From Desulfatitalea sp. (GTDB lineage Bacteria > Desulfobacterota > Desulfobacteria > Desulfobacterales > Desulfosarcinaceae), in NCBI GenBank assembly GCA_013041835.1, contig JABDRH010000117.1, positions 1 through 12,883 of the forward strand: a stretch of DNA of 12,883 nt, in the 5' to 3' direction. Every line of letters begins with the position of its first letter. Positions within the stretch are counted from its first letter, which is position 1. Shown here one piece after another: positions 4,062-9,397 of this stretch. The notes under the pieces were generated by a model. That model was given only the letters and a program-made list of their open reading frames with translations, did no database searches and was not told where the DNA came from. The translations under genes were made by a program, and so were the position numbers.

Positions 4062-4100
4062 GGTTCGCGCATAAATAAGATCAGCATTTATGTGCGAGCC
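4062..4100. repeat. 15-bp-stem hairpin, one copy of a repeated palindromic element
   Basis: GGTTCGCGCATAAAT (4062-4076) pairs over 15 positions with ATTTATGTGCGAGCC (4086-4100), with two G-U pairs and a 9-nt loop. It overlaps the last codons of the short YebG-like gene on the minus strand, whose TAA is 4088-4090. A related hairpin with the same right arm and a 9-nt loop lies at 7541-7579. It lacks a T tract, so it is not a standard terminator; it may be a REP-like element or an mRNA-end stabiliser. Confidence 0.55.
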
Positions 4101-4288
4101 CTCATGATGGCCGGTTTCAAAACCGCTCTTACTCTGACCGCATTTTTAGCCAAGAAAATAGTCAACTCTTCCAGATCCATTTCATCCATCTGTACGCCTG
4201 CCGCTTCAACCAACCCGGCTAGCTCAGCAGCGGCATCCGTGACCCTGTCAATAGCATTGGCGGCTTCTGCGCGCGATATGTCAGCCAT
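4088..4288 (-). CDS. Short YebG-like protein (duplicate of the YebG C-terminal half)
   Basis: This is a 66-residue protein. Residues from about DAAAELAGLV onward align with the C-terminal half of the YebG protein encoded just upstream: roughly 19 identities over 41 aligned residues, including DAAxELAG, the DE pair, LAKNA and a final LK. The N-terminal YebG strand motif (KYVVxRNG...FxxKKEAxAYD) is absent and replaced by about 15 alanine-rich residues. The ATG lies 8 nt after the yebG stop with no clear Shine-Dalgarno, which suggests translational coupling to yebG. I infer a partial tandem duplication that was kept as a small helical protein. It could also be decaying, but the frame is intact and leucine and acidic positions are conserved. 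Confidence 0.6.
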   Translation of the reverse strand: MADISRAEAANAIDRVTDAAAELAGLVEAAGVQMDEMDLEELTIFLAKNAVRVRAVLKPAIMRART

Positions 4289-4296
4289 TGTTTGAG

Positions 4297-4641
4297 TTAT
4301 GCTGCTTGGCTATTGGCTTTGGTCTGAATGCCATTGTTCTGGTCTTGCGTGGATTCGTTCCGGGTTGCCTTATTCCGCTTGCCGGCAGGCGCCGCCTTTA
4401 CCGGCTTCACGATTTTCAATATTTGAATCACAGATGTAGCGTTCTTTGCCAGAACAAGAGAGATGTCTTCGATCACTTTCTCATCGAGATTGAGACCATG
4501 GTCCCCCTCTTTTATCATCCCGGCCAGTTCCTCAGCGGCATCCAGCATCATATCGTATGCCTCGGCCTCTTTTTTGTTGGAAAAGGTTTTGTCGAGCTCA
4601 ACACCATTTCTGACCACAACATATTTTGCGATTACAGACAT
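4297..4641 (-). CDS. yebG: YebG family protein (DNA-damage-inducible family)
   Basis: This 114-residue protein matches the YebG family in its opening KYVVVRNG, the motif TFSNKKEAEAYDMMLD (19-34) and a helical, acidic region ending in LAKNATSVIQIL. E. coli YebG (about 96 aa) belongs to the SOS regulon; its molecular role is not established. The C-terminal tail from about residue 82 (APAGKRNKATRNESTQ) is low-complexity, polar and longer than in E. coli. The start is supported by GAGGAAG 8 nt upstream of the ATG. The gene follows an SPL-family radical SAM gene on the same strand, with a gap of about 186 bp holding two palindromes and a possible promoter. A shortened duplicate follows 8 nt after its stop. 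Confidence 0.8.
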   Translation of the reverse strand: MSVIAKYVVVRNGVELDKTFSNKKEAEAYDMMLDAAEELAGMIKEGDHGLNLDEKVIEDISLVLAKNATSVIQILKIVKPVKAAPAGKRNKATRNESTQDQNNGIQTKANSQAA

Positions 4642-4827: not shown

Positions 4828-5925
4828 TTATCTGAGTCCACAATGTCGTCCGGCGCTTGTATCCAGCATGACCGGCAAGCCACCGTGTAAAGAAGGGCTA
4901 AACCCGAAACTCTGGTCCCAGACCGCATCGTCTTCCATGCACAAGTAGGTGGTAAGGTCCGGGGCATGACGTCTTATCCGGGCCATCAGGTGCTTGTATA
5001 TCTTGATACGCAACGGCTTGAAATATCGCATTTTGTTGTCCAGCCCGGGAATGAATTCACCATAGATGATGGCCGAACTGGGAAAGCGCTTCTGTATGAC
5101 GCTATGCAACAGCGGCATGAAGCGCAAGGTGCCCATGCTGATCCAGGCGATGTTTTCCGCTGACACATGGCCGAAAATGGCATCCACAACCTGCGCATAT
5201 GCCCGTTCACAACCAGGATAGAGAATGATGGGATCGAAGTGAAAGGCCAACGGATAGCCCCATGCCTGGCACTGGGCGGCAGCTCGTAAACGTGCCTTCA
5301 ATGTGGCGGTACCCCGTTCCTGGTCGGCGATCACCTCAGGCGTATTTACCGACCACGCCACGATGGTTTTTCGTTTGTGAGGCAGGCCCTCGAGGCCGGC
5401 GATGGCTGTTGTCTTGGTTTTAAGCTCAAGCACAGACCGCTCCTGGCGACCAAAGTGCGTCACCAATCGGTGGGTCAGATCGGAATATGACTCCCAGATT
5501 AGACTGTCGGTGAACTCCCCGGTTCCGATCCTTAATTGCTGGCCCGAATCGATTAACTGATCAAGTTCGGCGAACAGGTCTTCGTGATTGACAAAGAAAT
5601 GCAGCAGCGGTGGGTGAAAGTAGCTCTGAAGGATGCAGTAGGCACAATCCATGGTGCAGTATGTGCCGATATTCAAAATGTGATAGTCGCAGCAGGTGTA
5701 CTCCCTAGTGCCTGGGCATTTGCGCAGGAAAGGACCGTGATTGGCGGTCAGCACGAGCGCCTGTTTGCCGGCCGCGCAGGGATCATCGGCGCGCTTGATT
5801 TGTTCGTAGACTTGAGCGATGTTCTCTGTTCGGATGGGGGACAACCCCAGCACGCGGGCAAACCGTCCCACCACGGAATCATCCATGTTGTGCGTCGTGT
5901 CTACATAAAGGGCTGTGATGGTCAT
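4828..5925 (-). CDS. Spore photoproduct lyase (SPL) family radical SAM protein
   Basis: This 365-residue protein is of the SPL/COG1533 type. The radical SAM cluster motif CTMDCAYC provides C90, C94 and C97 in the CxxxCxxC arrangement, preceded by YHILNIGTY and followed by FFVNHEDLF, as in SPL. A TIM-barrel region with VAWSVNTPEVI, FHFDPIILYPG and WISMGTLRF follows. True SPL repairs the thymine dimer called spore photoproduct with a radical relayed through a conserved Cys about 43 residues after the motif (C141 in B. subtilis). Here the aligned GTGEFTD stretch has Glu137 instead, so the substrate or mechanism probably differs. I chose the ATG at 5925 because the frame upstream to a TTG at 6015 overlaps the preceding gene. 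No good Shine-Dalgarno precedes 5925. It is the last gene of a three-gene unit. Confidence 0.85.
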   Translation of the reverse strand: MTITALYVDTTHNMDDSVVGRFARVLGLSPIRTENIAQVYEQIKRADDPCAAGKQALVLTANHGPFLRKCPGTREYTCCDYHILNIGTYCTMDCAYCILQSYFHPPLLHFFVNHEDLFAELDQLIDSGQQLRIGTGEFTDSLIWESYSDLTHRLVTHFGRQERSVLELKTKTTAIAGLEGLPHKRKTIVAWSVNTPEVIADQERGTATLKARLRAAAQCQAWGYPLAFHFDPIILYPGCERAYAQVVDAIFGHVSAENIAWISMGTLRFMPLLHSVIQKRFPSSAIIYGEFIPGLDNKMRYFKPLRIKIYKHLMARIRRHAPDLTTYLCMEDDAVWDQSFGFSPSLHGGLPVMLDTSAGRHCGLR

Positions 5926-5965
5926 GGTTAGAGAGGCAGAGCGGCAATAAATGACATTGACTTGT

Positions 5966-6166
5966 TCATGACTTGTTGAAGAGCAGAATCCAGGGCAGCA
6001 AAAGAATAGCTGCAATGATCATTACGCCCGGTGGGGAAAGATACGGTGCATACCACGGCTTTCTCAATGATCGCGCTTTTTGTAATTCGTTGAGGAACCA
6101 ACTGCCGATAATTGCCGCCGCGACCAAAATGCTAATCGCCTGAACGATCTGAGTGAATGCTTCCAA
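5966..6166 (-). CDS. Small two-helix membrane protein, function unknown
   Basis: This 66-residue protein has two predicted membrane segments, at about 8-25 (VQAISILVAAAIIGSWFL) and 47-62 (GVMIIAAILLLPWILLF). They are separated by a basic loop (LQKARSLRKPW), which suggests both ends lie outside the cytoplasm. The start is TTG, supported by AGGAAA about 6 nt upstream; no ATG is available in the frame. It lies 27 nt after the unknown 117-aa gene and 40 nt before the SPL-family gene, so it probably belongs to one operon. I do not recognise a family. Confidence 0.65.
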   Translation of the reverse strand: MEAFTQIVQAISILVAAAIIGSWFLNELQKARSLRKPWYAPYLSPPGVMIIAAILLLPWILLFNKS

Positions 6167-6193
6167 TCTGATTTCCTGGGGGATATGGCGCGT

Positions 6194-6547
6194 CTACCCC
6201 TTGATGAGCAGGGCCATCCGCAACGTGGTGTAGCGATTGTTGTTCCACGGCCAGAACTTGGCGATGATGGTGTTATCATCTACCTTGGCTTCAAACAGCG
6301 TTTGATTGACACGAATGCCGCCGGTTCTTTTCGTAATCGCCAAATCCCCTTCGCTGGGCATCTCGCCTTTGTCTTTTCGGGGTTTTCCCAAGACTTCGGT
6401 CAATATCTGATACCACGCTTCTGCCTGTCCATTGTCGAACACCAGTTCAACAAACTCGTCGTTTAAGCACCGCTGCTCAATGATCGTCAGATGTCTGCAT
6501 CGTTCGATGATATCCTTTAATTGAATCGATTTGACTTCTGAATCCAT
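6194..6547 (-). CDS. Conserved-looking hypothetical protein, 117 aa
   Basis: I do not recognise this protein. It is soluble, with no signal peptide or membrane segment. An acidic N-terminal half (DIIERCRHLTIIEQRCL, then ELVFDNGQAEAWYQILTEVLG) is followed by a basic linker and a beta-rich C-terminal half ending in FWPWNNNRYTTLRMALL. There are two cysteines, at about 17 and 27. The ATG is preceded by GGGAAG 5 nt away. A near-consensus promoter lies about 40-70 bp upstream, making it the first gene of a unit with the small membrane protein and the SPL-family enzyme. A role connected to that enzyme is only a guess from gene order. Confidence 0.65.
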   Translation of the reverse strand: MDSEVKSIQLKDIIERCRHLTIIEQRCLNDEFVELVFDNGQAEAWYQILTEVLGKPRKDKGEMPSEGDLAITKRTGGIRVNQTLFEAKVDDNTIIAKFWPWNNNRYTTLRMALLIKG

Positions 6548-6585
6548 AGCGGCTTCCCATCCATAGGTGTGATTGCCGATATCCC

Positions 6586-6614
6586 ACTATAAAAAAAGCA
6601 TCCTGTCGTGTCAA
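6586..6614 (-). promoter_or_regulatory. Strong sigma70-type promoter for the unknown/membrane/SPL operon
   Basis: On the minus strand the -35 is a perfect TTGACA (6614-6609) and the -10 is TATAGT (6591-6586), with a 17-bp spacer that includes a T run. Transcription would start near 6579, giving a leader of about 30 nt before the ATG at 6547. A parS-like palindrome ends 20 bp upstream of the -35. Confidence 0.7.
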
Positions 6615-6633
6615 AGCAATTATGGAAACACAA

Positions 6634-6649
6634 CGTTTCACGTGAAAAC
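6634..6649. promoter_or_regulatory. parS-like palindrome (possible ParB site)
   Basis: The core TTTCACGTGAAA (6636-6647) is a perfect 12-bp palindrome. The 16-mer matches the widely conserved parS sequence TGTTTCACGTGAAACA at 13 positions, all 13 contiguous (GTTTCACGTGAAA). It lies in a 135-bp intergenic gap. No parA or parB gene is in the window. Alternatively it is an operator for the promoter just downstream. Confidence 0.5.
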
Positions 6650-6682
6650 ACATTCTATAGTACCGCAAATCGCATAAGACCA

Positions 6683-7120
6683 CTATGGCTGGCTCTGCAG
6701 GATGATCCGATCGGTGATGAAGCCGAAAAAGCCGTCTTTGTTCGCGGCAGAAAAGGACCATCCCAAATGGATCTGGCAGTCGGCACAGATCGTGATTCTC
6801 CAGGAATATCCGGCGAACCAGGCAAATTCCGTGGATGGTGATCCGATAAAACCACAACCTCTGGCGGATTGAAAGCATGCGATTTCATAGACAATGCCGG
6901 AAGGATTCGCGAAGGTGTGGGTGTGACTGCCCTGGATGTGAGCACGATGGGACGGCCGGCTCAAGCGCTGCCTGCAATTTTTGCAGACAAACCAGGCCTC
7001 TTCATCCTGATCGTCCGGTGTTTGTTGAGACGATGGCGCCATGGAAAGGCTTTTGGGGGCGGAGGTGTCCATCTTTAAGACTGTAATCAATGCAACGTAA
7101 AGCACGTGACCTTTCATCAT
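6683..7120 (-). CDS. CULT-domain protein (cereblon-like ligand-binding zinc protein)
   Basis: This 145-residue protein has a C-terminal CULT domain from about residue 43. Two zinc pairs, C46/C49 (VCKNC) and C112/C115 (CADC), and a tri-tryptophan cage, W101, W107 and W121, have the same spacing as W380/W386/W400 and C391/C394 of human cereblon. Phe123 matches F402. Typical text includes HTHTFANPSGIVYEI, EFAWFAGYSWRIT and IHLGWSF. CULT domains bind uridine- and thalidomide-like cyclic imides; bacterial single-domain forms such as MsCI4 of Magnetospirillum are known, but their native ligand is uncertain. The N-terminus has a short hydrophobic stretch (VLYVALITVL, 6-15) after a Lys that might be a weak export signal, followed by a polar linker. 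The start at 7120 (or the adjacent ATG at 7117) is supported by CAGGGG. It lies 65 bp downstream of the HU-like gene. Confidence 0.88.
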   Translation of the reverse strand: MMKGHVLYVALITVLKMDTSAPKSLSMAPSSQQTPDDQDEEAWFVCKNCRQRLSRPSHRAHIQGSHTHTFANPSGIVYEIACFQSARGCGFIGSPSTEFAWFAGYSWRITICADCQIHLGWSFSAANKDGFFGFITDRIILQSQP

Positions 7121-7185
7121 AGTCCCCTGCCATCGGGAAGCATGGCGTGGCTGTTGTTCGTCTCCTGGTCATGGATAAGGAATGT

Positions 7186-7464
7186 TCAGGATAGGTCCAC
7201 CCGCTCCTTTAGCTCCTTGCCACAACGGAAAAACGGTAGTTTTTTTGGCTTGACCACTACCGGTGAACCTGTTTTCGGGTTTCTGCCGGTATACGACTTG
7301 TACTCCTTGACAAAAATGCTGCCTAAGCCGCGAATTTCGACGCGTTCACCTTCTGCCAATGCGTCCGCCATGGTATTGAAAAATATATCTACAATTTTTT
7401 CAGCCTGTTGGCGCGTGAAATCATTCCGGTTTTTAAGCTCATTCACCAGATCGGCCTTATTCAT
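7186..7464 (-). CDS. HU/IHF family DNA-binding protein
   Basis: This 92-residue histone-like protein bends DNA as a dimer. The N-terminal helices begin MNKADLVNELKNR. The DNA-binding arm carries GRNPKTG (60-66) with the intercalating Pro63, and the C-terminus reads KPKKLPFFRCGKELKERV. This style resembles IHF-beta-like HU proteins of Desulfobacterota; which subunit type it is cannot be decided here. The start is the ATG at 7464, fixed by AAGGAGG 5 nt upstream; the longer frame to 7527 runs through the promoter. A near-perfect promoter lies just upstream, consistent with high expression. Confidence 0.93.
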   Translation of the reverse strand: MNKADLVNELKNRNDFTRQQAEKIVDIFFNTMADALAEGERVEIRGLGSIFVKEYKSYTGRNPKTGSPVVVKPKKLPFFRCGKELKERVDLS

Positions 7465-7494
7465 AAAATCCTCCTTAATGTCAATTAAATCAAT

Positions 7495-7523
7495 ATTGTA
7501 GCGATGTAATCCATGCGTGTCAA
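7495..7523 (-). promoter_or_regulatory. Near-consensus sigma70 promoter of the HU/IHF-like gene
   Basis: On the minus strand there is TTGACA (7523-7518), a 17-bp spacer and TACAAT (7500-7495). The start of transcription would be near 7488, about 24 nt before the ATG. A small inverted repeat, AACCA-A-TGGTT (7522-7532), overlaps the -35 and could be an operator. Confidence 0.75.
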
Positions 7524-7540
7524 CCAATGGTTTGGATTAT

Positions 7541-7579
7541 TCGCTCAGCTAAATACTGAACCTATTTATGCGCGAGCCC
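7541..7579. repeat. Second copy of the palindromic repeat (between tRNA-Leu and the HU-like gene)
   Basis: The right arm ATTTATGCGCGAGCCC (7564-7579) matches 4086-4101 with one difference. The left arm TCGCTCAGCTAAAT (7541-7554) is a degenerate complement with a 2-nt bulge, and the loop is again 9 nt. It lies in non-coding DNA on the far side of the same minus-strand block as the first copy. Confidence 0.45.
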
Positions 7580-7627
7580 AAAGTGAAGCGAATGTTTCCG
7601 GGGAGTTCGAGTCTTCGAAAAACGAGG

Positions 7628-7715
7628 TGGTGCCTGGAGCCGGAATCGAACCGGCACGAAGTTAAACTTCGAGGGATTTTAAGTCCCTTGCGTCTACCAA
7701 TTCCGCCATCCAGGC
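7628..7715 (-). tRNA. tRNA-Leu (anticodon UAA), CCA encoded
   Basis: On the minus strand the gene starts GCCTGGATGGCGGAATTGG and ends with the T arm GGTTCGATTCC and acceptor TCCAGGC, discriminator A and encoded CCA (7630-7628). The 7-bp acceptor pairs fully. The anticodon loop CTTAAAA gives anticodon UAA, reading UUA and UUG. The long variable arm (CGAAG...CTTCG) is typical of class II tRNA-Leu. A T5 run (7622-7618) follows 5 nt after the CCA and may serve termination. Confidence 0.97.
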
Positions 7716-7886
7716 CAGTCGTATATTATCAGCGGATCGCATCATCTGACGGGATGAACCGGTGATACCGAATCTTTCAAACAATGCGAGGCGGATCATG
7801 CGATGAACGGTCTAATACAGTTACCCGGGGCTGATGTCAAGCATTGAAATAATTGTAATTTTGTCATAAAGAAAGCCGCCATAGGT

Positions 7887-7902
7887 ATCCAAACATCCAA
7901 AC
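7887..7902. repeat. Tandem 8-bp repeat upstream of the outer-membrane protein gene
   Basis: ATCCAAAC occurs twice head to tail, ending 31 bp before the yfaZ-like ATG. The surrounding gap 7716-7933 is AT-rich; it contains a poor promoter-like TTGAAA (7844-7849) with CATAAA 15 bp later. I see no gene or structured RNA there. Confidence 0.35.
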
Positions 7903-7933
7903 ATGTAAAATTGGCCTAATTAAAAGGAGAACA

Positions 7934-8542
7934 ATGATGATGCAACGATTGTGTGCAATGATGGTCTTAGTGTTTGCTATCAGTTGGGGGGGAGCGTGTG
8001 CGGCCGAAACGTACCGTTTCGATCTGAGGGCCGGTTCCTCTTCCATTGCGGCCGGCCTGCACCATAAAACTTATCTGGATACCGGTTATCTTCGGGTGGG
8101 GGGCAGCGGCGTTTATGCTGATGATGATAGAATCCAATATCAATGGGCCAGTTTAGATCTGACCGTGGGCAGTGATACCCTCCGGCCGGGATTCAATTGT
8201 GATGTGGGACTGCGCGGCTTGCTTGGCTCGGCGGAGGATACGGGCCGCAAAGGTGATATCGGATCGTTTGGCTTCACCATTTTTGCCGGCTACCTTTTTC
8301 CCCCGGAAGTGACCGGTATTCCATTGGAGCTTTTTGGCGGCTTGACCCTGTCACCTGAAATTATGAGCTTTTGGGATTCGGAAAACTACAGAGAAATCAA
8401 ACTGGGATTCGGCTTCCGCATTATTAAAAATGCCTCTTTACAACTAGCCTATACCAATTATCGCGTGGACATGAAAAACACTCCCGACAAATGGGCCTTG
8501 AATGAGGATGCCTACCAGTTCGGACTGGTGATGCGATTTTAA
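7934..8542 (+). CDS. YfaZ-like outer-membrane beta-barrel protein
   Basis: This 202-residue exported protein has a signal peptide, hydrophobic core at about 6-19, and likely cleavage after Ala24 (ACAA before ETYRF). There is no lipobox. The mature part is made of alternating amphipathic strands rich in Gly, Tyr and Phe (WASLDLTVG, FGFTIFAGYLF, LELFGGLTLSP, IKLGFGFRI, LQLAYTNYRV) and ends in the outer-membrane signature FGLVMRF with C-terminal Phe. The layout and the LELFGGLTLSPE segment resemble the YfaZ family, whose function is not established. AGGAG at 7925-7929 precedes three consecutive ATG codons; the second or third gives better spacing. It is a single gene between tRNA-Leu and the convergent elbB unit. 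Confidence 0.8.
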   Translation: MMMQRLCAMMVLVFAISWGGACAAETYRFDLRAGSSSIAAGLHHKTYLDTGYLRVGGSGVYADDDRIQYQWASLDLTVGSDTLRPGFNCDVGLRGLLGSAEDTGRKGDIGSFGFTIFAGYLFPPEVTGIPLELFGGLTLSPEIMSFWDSENYREIKLGFGFRIIKNASLQLAYTNYRVDMKNTPDKWALNEDAYQFGLVMRF

Positions 8543-8551
8543 AAATCGCAT
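8531..8551. repeat. 21-bp near-perfect palindrome overlapping the yfaZ-like stop codon
   Basis: ATGCGATTTT-A-AAAATCGCAT has 10-bp perfect arms around one base and covers the TAA at 8540-8542. No T tract follows on either strand. In RNA, the central A/T-rich part would open into a loop on a GC-containing stem. It lies at the convergent boundary with elbB and might limit read-through or protect the mRNA end. Confidence 0.45.
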
Positions 8552-8736
8552 GTATTAAAATGCAAACGTATTAATGCACGAGCTTTCAGCTCATTCATGC
8601 AGCCGCCGACCATGTTCAGCCGCTTGATGAAGGCCAGGGCCACCGGATTTTCACTCTGAATGGTCTGGTCGGCGACGCTGTATGGCAGGTGCGTCCGGTC
8701 GTCGCTCCGCGTACCGAACACGGCGAGCTCAGACAA
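8539..8736 (-). other. Doubtful small reading frame or gene remnant after elbB
   Basis: In the 198-bp gap between elbB and the yfaZ-like gene, one minus-strand frame stays open for about 65 codons from a TTG at 8736 (SELAVFGTRSDDRTHLPY ... NPVALAFIKRLNMVGG). Its codons look G/C-biased at third positions, like the real genes nearby. There is no convincing ribosome binding site and I know no matching family. It could be a degraded gene end or chance; otherwise I see nothing in this gap besides the palindrome at its left edge. Confidence 0.2.
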
Positions 8737-8740
8737 TGCA

Positions 8741-9397
8741 TCATGCCATTTCAAGCACCTGTCTGACCAGCTTTTCAATACCCACAGCCACATCCTTGAT
8801 ACCCGGCCCAAGCATGTAAGCCGGGGTGGTGACGATTCTCAGCGCTGTGTCCACGTGAATCTGGTCCACGTTGCACGCCACATGTTTGGCGCCCATGGTT
8901 TCAATGGCGGCGGCAGTTCCCACTTCGGTGCCGATGGTTACTTCGGGTTTATGGGCGGCCAGGGCTTTGGCCAGTGTAGCCGGTGCGATGCACAAGGCGC
9001 CGACAGGCTTTCGGGCCGCAATCATCTCCTCTATGATTCGCTGAACCTGTGGATGAACCTCCGCCTGCGGCCCCTTGACGGCAAAAGTGCTTAAATTCTT
9101 GGCCGCTCCCATACCACCGGGAATAATCAGGGCATCCAACTGTCGGGCCGTCACCGTGGCCAGATCTACCATGTTGCCCCTGGCGATGCGCGCCGACTCC
9201 TTCAAGACATTGCGCGCCCCATCCATTTCGCTCTGGTCGGTATGGTCGATCACATGCAGTTGATCTTCATCGGGCGCCATGCAGACCACCTCGGCGCCGG
9301 CCTGGTCGAGAAACAGCAGGGTAAGCACGGCTTCGTGAATCTCCGAACCGTCGAAAACCCCGCACCCACTGAGCAATACGCCGATCCTTTTCCTCAT
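8741..9397 (-). CDS. elbB: ElbB family glyoxalase / isoprenoid biosynthesis protein
   Basis: This 218-residue protein has the length and motifs of E. coli ElbB (DJ-1/PfpI, class I glutamine amidotransferase-like fold): IGVLLSGCGVFDGSEIHE near the N-terminus, MAPDEDQLHVIDH, NVLKESARIARG, ALIIPGGMGAAKNLS and the nucleophile elbow GALCIAPA with Cys136. The C-terminus reads RIVTTPAYML. E. coli ElbB has weak glyoxalase activity and was linked to isoprenoid (lycopene) yield; its physiological reaction is unclear. The start at 9397 is fixed by GGGAGGAG 8 nt upstream; the in-frame extension to 9469 overlaps the thioesterase gene. It lies 52 bp downstream of the thioesterase gene on the same strand, likely one operon. 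Confidence 0.93.
   Translation of the reverse strand: MRKRIGVLLSGCGVFDGSEIHEAVLTLLFLDQAGAEVVCMAPDEDQLHVIDHTDQSEMDGARNVLKESARIARGNMVDLATVTARQLDALIIPGGMGAAKNLSTFAVKGPQAEVHPQVQRIIEEMIAARKPVGALCIAPATLAKALAAHKPEVTIGTEVGTAAAIETMGAKHVACNVDQIHVDTALRIVTTPAYMLGPGIKDVAVGIEKLVRQVLEMA

Follow-up and report, generated by a model that had tools for sequence, protein, structure and literature searches.

A bacterial CULT protein whose relatives share an N-terminal motif, possibly a degron reader for AAA+ proteases

Introduction

An established model in work on cereblon ligands is MsCI4, the cereblon isoform 4 of Magnetospirillum gryphiswaldense (MGR_0879). It is also, together with the CULT or thalidomide-binding domain of human cereblon, among the described systems closest to a gene that we analysed in Desulfatitalea sp., which encodes a small stand-alone CULT protein. 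The window, as we call the whole stretch of DNA under study, comprises 12,883 nucleotides (contig JABDRH010000117.1 of assembly GCA_013041835.1), and the gene occupies 6683–7120 on its minus strand.

Four bodies of earlier work bear on this gene. C-terminal cyclic imides are the degron of CRBN and arise by asparagine cyclisation, by damage or through PCMT1 (PMC11974815). MsCI4 binds uridine, with deoxyuridine seen in a crystal, and the context of this binding is left unsettled (PMC4449219). CULT shares the beta-tent group with Yippee and Mis18, and the 2015 paper describes its prokaryotic members as CULT domain throughout (PMC4287342). Finally, SspB-type adaptors, which tether substrates to ClpXP, combine a folded reader, a flexible linker and a short hydrophobic-basic peptide, and peptides that bind the ClpX zinc-binding domain (ZBD) have the consensus LKxh (PMC7226468). 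Our literature searches found no paper tying bacterial CULT to Clp or Lon, or to a role in vivo, among the matches listed, subscription papers being mostly outside their reach. The N-terminal motif and acidic linker of CULT relatives, a family-limited block of DNA-related genes and the Clp and Lon neighbours that we describe are new here.

The CULT domain

The last ~100 residues of the window protein are a CULT domain by phmmer and by predicted fold, the sole shortfall among the sequence and fold tests being a sub-threshold score to the neighbouring Yippee family. In phmmer searches of the PDB, MsCI4 matched with E 1.3e-25, the best chain named 'Protein cereblon' with E 5.3e-15 and 4tz4, titled human cereblon, with E 3.9e-13; the domain is 35–41% identical to that of MsCI4, which has the same zinc cysteines and tryptophan cage, and 25–31% identical to that of human cereblon. 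An earlier note on this DNA, made from its letters alone, had called the protein cereblon-like and proposed a profile search. The refuting outcome, a lack of CULT similarity, did not arise. The similarity is strong by phmmer, but the Pfam Yippee-Mis18 profile (PF03226) scores just 20.5 bits, under its 26.6-bit cut-off, CULT being far closer to the window protein than Yippee/Mis18, and an NCBIfam profile search gave no match to it.

Residues C46, C49, C112 and C115, predicted to bind zinc, and W101, W107 and W121 are invariant in all 56 aligned sequences, the window's included. On the minus strand the two CxxC pairs lie at 6974–6985 and 6776–6787, and the cage tryptophans at 6818–6820, 6800–6802 and 6758–6760. 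Their spacing is as the earlier note had it: W107 is W101+6, W121 is another 14 residues on, and cysteines stand at W101+11 and W101+14. Of 183 sequences (120 from the database, 63 from loci), 182 have the complete pattern C..C / WF....W / C..C / W, as do 41/41 gathered later; all of the sequences scored were collected through homology.

The predicted model has the beta-tent fold and superposes, in the overlay that the earlier note had proposed, on both reference backbones: within 1.0–1.3 Å on the five best MsCI4 chains, within 1.2–1.3 Å over 103–105 residues on thalidomide-bound MsCI4 chains, and within 1.1–1.6 Å over 101–105 residues on many cereblon entries, with a larger deviation where the alignment extends into the disordered part. 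PDB 4v31, an MsCI4 structure, is among those that match. On the strength of this backbone match and of the tryptophan alignment, the three tryptophans may form one pocket. Sequence similarity, invariant residues and predicted fold thus together support the assignment as a bacterial CULT protein. Unlike human cereblon it is single-domain: a Pfam scan at E up to 1 found no LON domain in its 145 residues, so that it is not a full cereblon. It also differs from MsCI4, whose crystallised chain has ~20 residues before the domain, compared with ~43 here.

The reading frame exists where the earlier note placed it, and we add the strand, since frame 1 of the plus strand halts at codon 53. The protein may start at the second ATG (7117) rather than the first, because a GGGG run is better spaced from 7117 and 144 residues is also the length of the database copy (P0001); our residue numbers follow the 145-residue version, from the first ATG, in which the CULT domain covers residues 44–140 (6701–6991, minus strand).

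The N-terminal motif and linker

CULT relatives conserve a short N-terminal motif on an acidic linker, not a hydrophobic signal. At least 28 residues precede the first CxxC in 85 of 102 non-redundant CULT proteins, and a motif search in these recovered [L/Y/V/F]-[L/F/A]-[L/F]-[R/K] with a log-likelihood ratio of 233.8, compared with 126.0 ± 6.4 for 20 shuffles (maximum 140.7). The motif site ends 24–30 residues before the CxxC in 63/85 and its basic position holds R or K in 60/85, while the simpler pattern hydrophobic-[LF]-[KR] occurs in 55/85 N-termini (14.1 ± 3.2 expected from 500 shuffles). In a relatedness control on equal stretches of 46 sequences, z was 19.0 for the motif zone and 4.7 for the linker zone; in these 46 sequences the linker has an acidic composition (net −0.12 per residue). 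A fixed motif model was then applied to 19 of 41 later sequences, the other 22 having been removed as too similar, and scored 58.8 against 12.9 ± 9.1, with none of 200 shuffles as high.

In the window protein the corresponding segment is TVLKMDTS (residues 13–20; 7061–7084, minus strand), whose VLK does match the simple pattern, and the linker comprises residues 21–43 (6992–7060, minus strand). The linker is mostly predicted to be disordered, and in the AlphaFold2 (AF2) model of the 144-residue form residues 1–36 have a predicted local distance difference test score (pLDDT) below 50. The hydrophobic N-terminal stretch to which the earlier note drew attention is real in this protein (VLYVALITVLKM, mean 2.19) but is not kept in relatives: a 12-residue mean hydrophobicity of at least 1.6 is reached in just 4/85 N-termini, the window's among them. 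On this measure, with no signal-peptide predictor applied, we rejected the idea that the family as a whole has a signal peptide or a membrane anchor.

Protease genes beside CULT genes

We compared 83 CULT loci, that is, 84 neighbourhoods less one (L185) dropped as a marginal match (E 3.6e-4) with no CULT by profile. Proteases were detected as homologs of the LonC, ClpA and ClpS found there and by sequence signatures, so that others may be missed. One locus (L003) has the arrangement CULT-ClpS-ClpA: downstream of a type I CULT gene (5938–6375), and on its strand, come ClpS (6397–6717; PF02617, E 1.9e-32) and ClpA (6693–8975; Clp_N and two AAA domains). A second type of CULT protein, type II, has a GGNGAKAYQC-like N-terminus and no linker, and in some loci its gene adjoins a protease that we call LonB/LonC-type from its Pfam matches (PF13654, PF20436, PF20437, PF05362). 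A Lon-type protease lies beside CULT in five loci and two gene orders, the CULT gene standing ~90, 450 and 15 bp ahead of it in L109, L111 and L152, and after the protease and a BFN nuclease (named from PF02577) in L150 and L151. A genome of the same genus as that of L109 has the lactamase-fold gene, protease and BFN in the same order without CULT (G477, locus L186).

Among 85 genomes of one order, 6 carry type II CULT and a further 2 carry another CULT type; a close Lon ortholog (≥69% identity) is present in 11. All 6 type II genomes fall within these 11, and in 5/6 the two genes are linked (P 1e-6, with no phylogenetic correction). A same-strand protease gene was detected no more than 1 kb from CULT in 6 of the 83 loci, where random genes gave 1.96 on average (P 0.004); with the limit at 500 bp the count is 4 (P 0.025). 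A ClpP signature match in L087 was left uncounted because the open reading frame (ORF) looks implausible from its sequence. A pattern search for a PCMT gene beside CULT gave one in 1/83 loci, 4.4 kb away, and this candidate was also set aside.

Proposed function and alternatives

We favour, at a probability of about 0.4, a role for the stand-alone CULT protein as a reader of cyclic-imide C-termini, acting as a tethering adaptor that delivers substrates to an AAA+ protease. A ligand of the cyclic-imide type is most likely, given that CRBN has C-terminal cyclic imides as its degron (PMC11974815); by homology, the tryptophan cage would bind an aspartimide or glutarimide C-terminus produced by Asn or Gln cyclisation or by damage. 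Docking on the protease would fall to the hydrophobic-[LF]-[KR] motif at the N-terminus, carried on a flexible acidic linker. The first candidate for the linker-bearing type is the ClpX ZBD, or ClpA, whereas the partner of type II CULT, which has no linker, would be a Lon protease of LonB/LonC type. The marked protein would then be unfolded and degraded, and the gene may in this way help to destroy damaged proteins. What inclines us to a degron reader is the likely cyclic-imide ligand, together with the resemblance of motif and linker to tethering adaptors and to the LKxh consensus for the ClpX ZBD. The likeness to SspB-type adaptors is one of working only: the window protein has no SspB (PF04386) match in the Pfam scan at E up to 1, and the motif of CULT relatives sits at the N-terminus. 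The 30 genomes of the window's family gave no SspB match, while the controls, E. coli and Caulobacter, did. A different protein could therefore fill the place of an adaptor, though the absence is no proof of one.

A good deal weighs against this proposal. The resemblance of the motif to LKxh is loose, and so is the fit of the window's own N-terminus, where the profile scores best two positions out of register (5.8) and gives the in-register site −3.5. Taken individually, 7/19 held-out sequences reach p 0.05, two of them off register, and in the AF2 model of one relative (P0036) residues 17–33 fall below a pLDDT of 50 and the motif region is at ~50, so some packing of that region is possible. 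The protease neighbour test was devised after the first sightings, and since L150 and L151 share a genus the Lon cases do not count as independent. L003 is the only type I CULT locus with protease neighbours, and its N-terminus, PFVCLQHR, fits the motif poorly. No protease gene was detected next to CULT in the 23 loci of the window's family (the window and 22 others, second copies of G012 and G013 left out and contig ends uncorrected); the nearest in the family are ClpA and ClpS homologs 3.9 and 6.1 kb upstream of the CULT gene on the same strand (L069, G024). Type II CULT is followed by a DsbD-like gene, not Lon, in the 8 loci of f70 (L112, L168–L174); six CULT genomes of f65 have just a 39–41% Lon paralog; and in most of the genomes searched in f93, f77 and f47 the Lon ortholog was found but CULT was not. 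Within the 85-genome order, G062 and G478 have another CULT type without a close Lon ortholog, and in G480 CULT and Lon ortholog lie on different contigs.

The same fold and cage would serve equally well a cyclic-imide reader that works without a protease, binding proteins with an imide end, or else small cyclic imides, in repair, sequestration or signalling, its motif contacting some other partner. No same-strand protease gene was detected within 1 kb of CULT in 77/83 loci, and neighbours vary between families; protease neighbours nevertheless recur in some lineages, and we judge this reading unlikely, though the strongest of the alternatives. The uridine and deoxyuridine reported for MsCI4 (PMC4449219), the match of 4v31 to our model and the DNA-related neighbours in the window's family would suit a pyrimidine sensor, whose cage would bind uracil or uridine and report on pyrimidines or on uracil in DNA. 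In a Pfam scan of 86 non-family neighbour ORFs, however, no pyrimidine family had more than one member among the matches listed (25 of 88 families), a single ORF matching dihydrouridine synthase, and such a sensor seems to us improbable.

Ranked just behind it, and likewise improbable, is a partnership with the HU/IHF-like protein or the adjacent DNA-damage genes. HU lies upstream of CULT on the same strand in 18/23 family loci (within 0.4 kb) and an SPL-like gene follows on the same strand in 10/23; a promoter-like match precedes HU, with no terminator-like match in the region. Outside the family, however, HU is near CULT once in 38 loci, 1.1 kb off (L107), and no SPL, 66-aa, 117-aa or YebG gene was found in them; within it a one-sequence model finds YebG in the window alone, and common descent explains the gene order. 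We regard as very unlikely an exported or membrane-anchored CULT protein resembling the secreted animal ones. Here the hydrophobic stretch of the window protein and its loose fit to the docking motif speak in favour, but only 4 of the 85 N-termini reach 1.6, and what is preserved in relatives is the [LF]-[KR] motif rather than hydrophobic length.

A degron reader for AAA+ proteases therefore stays first in our order of preference, ahead of, in turn, the protease-free imide reader, the pyrimidine sensor, the HU partner and the exported protein. Its extension to bacterial CULT proteins at large is more doubtful: one type would dock on Clp by its N-terminal peptide and the other pair with Lon-type proteases, the LON-CULT architecture of cereblon would echo an older CULT-Lon partnership, and imide-ended degradation would predate ubiquitin. 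The conserved docking-like N-terminus and the recurrent Clp and Lon neighbours make the role of bacterial CULT directly testable and, if the proposal is true, a domain that is a drug target in animals would be linked to bacterial protein quality control.

Gene neighbourhood and distribution

The earlier note had placed the gene among DNA-related genes, and these are present in the window, all on the minus strand, but the link was not seen beyond the family. Directly upstream of CULT is the HU/IHF-like gene (7186–7464; PF00216, E 2.8e-30; the listed ORF is 7186–7527, with the HU domain from residue 22), and just upstream of this pair a tRNA-Leu with a TAA anticodon (7628–7715). Downstream follow a 117-aa protein with no Pfam or NCBIfam match (6194–6547; same strand in 12/23 family loci), a 66-aa protein with two apparent hydrophobic stretches (5966–6166; 20/23), an SPL-like radical SAM protein of unsettled start (4828–6015; Pfam SPL, E 3.5e-23, under NCBIfam cut-offs) and two adjacent YebG-like ORFs (4088–4288 and 4297–4641; PF07130, E 7e-9 and 4e-22), YebG being DNA-damage-inducible by its NCBIfam name. 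The family-neighbour models covered the first 63 loci and not the 21 fetched later, and among those 63 YebG is near CULT in the window only. The block is thus a feature of the family, and a general CULT-HU or DNA-repair operon was rejected.

Sigma70-like promoter matches precede HU (7495–7523) and, as a second strong match, lie between CULT and the 117-aa gene (6586–6614), both on the minus strand. By consensus matching, the region holds 7 such matches (3.2 expected) and 0 terminator-like matches (2.6 expected). HU and CULT may be co-transcribed. A defence and phage family scan gave nothing convincing beyond a weak match of the 66-aa protein to the PADLOC 2TM effector (E 0.0037).

CULT genes are common in the window's family and patchy elsewhere, being present in 23/30 family genomes (15/16 of good quality) but in at least 39/395 genomes of a phylum sample, a lower bound because some first-look candidates were unscored; another profile gives 40/395, the extra one marginal. 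Bacterial single-domain CULT proteins are therefore more numerous than the few of the earlier note: 46 database proteins match the single window sequence and 248 a CULT profile, 120 of them among the matches listed. A named relative at 47% identity comes from a Desulfobacterales metagenome-assembled genome, and some relatives are already labelled 'cereblon family protein' or 'CULT domain-containing' in public sources. A search of plasmids and phages with the window protein (E limit 1e-3) gave no match. Fusions were also sought among the relatives sharing words with L078; none of 41 proteins of 166–267 aa has a second precomputed Pfam domain.

Divergent second CULT copies occur in two family genomes (L075 in G013, L076 in G012), scoring 92 and 88 bits against ~168 for main copies. 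They share an N-terminal block of their own, and L106 appears similar. Two more partial CULT matches with stop codons lie on one contig of G502 (L162, L163), perhaps a decayed second copy.
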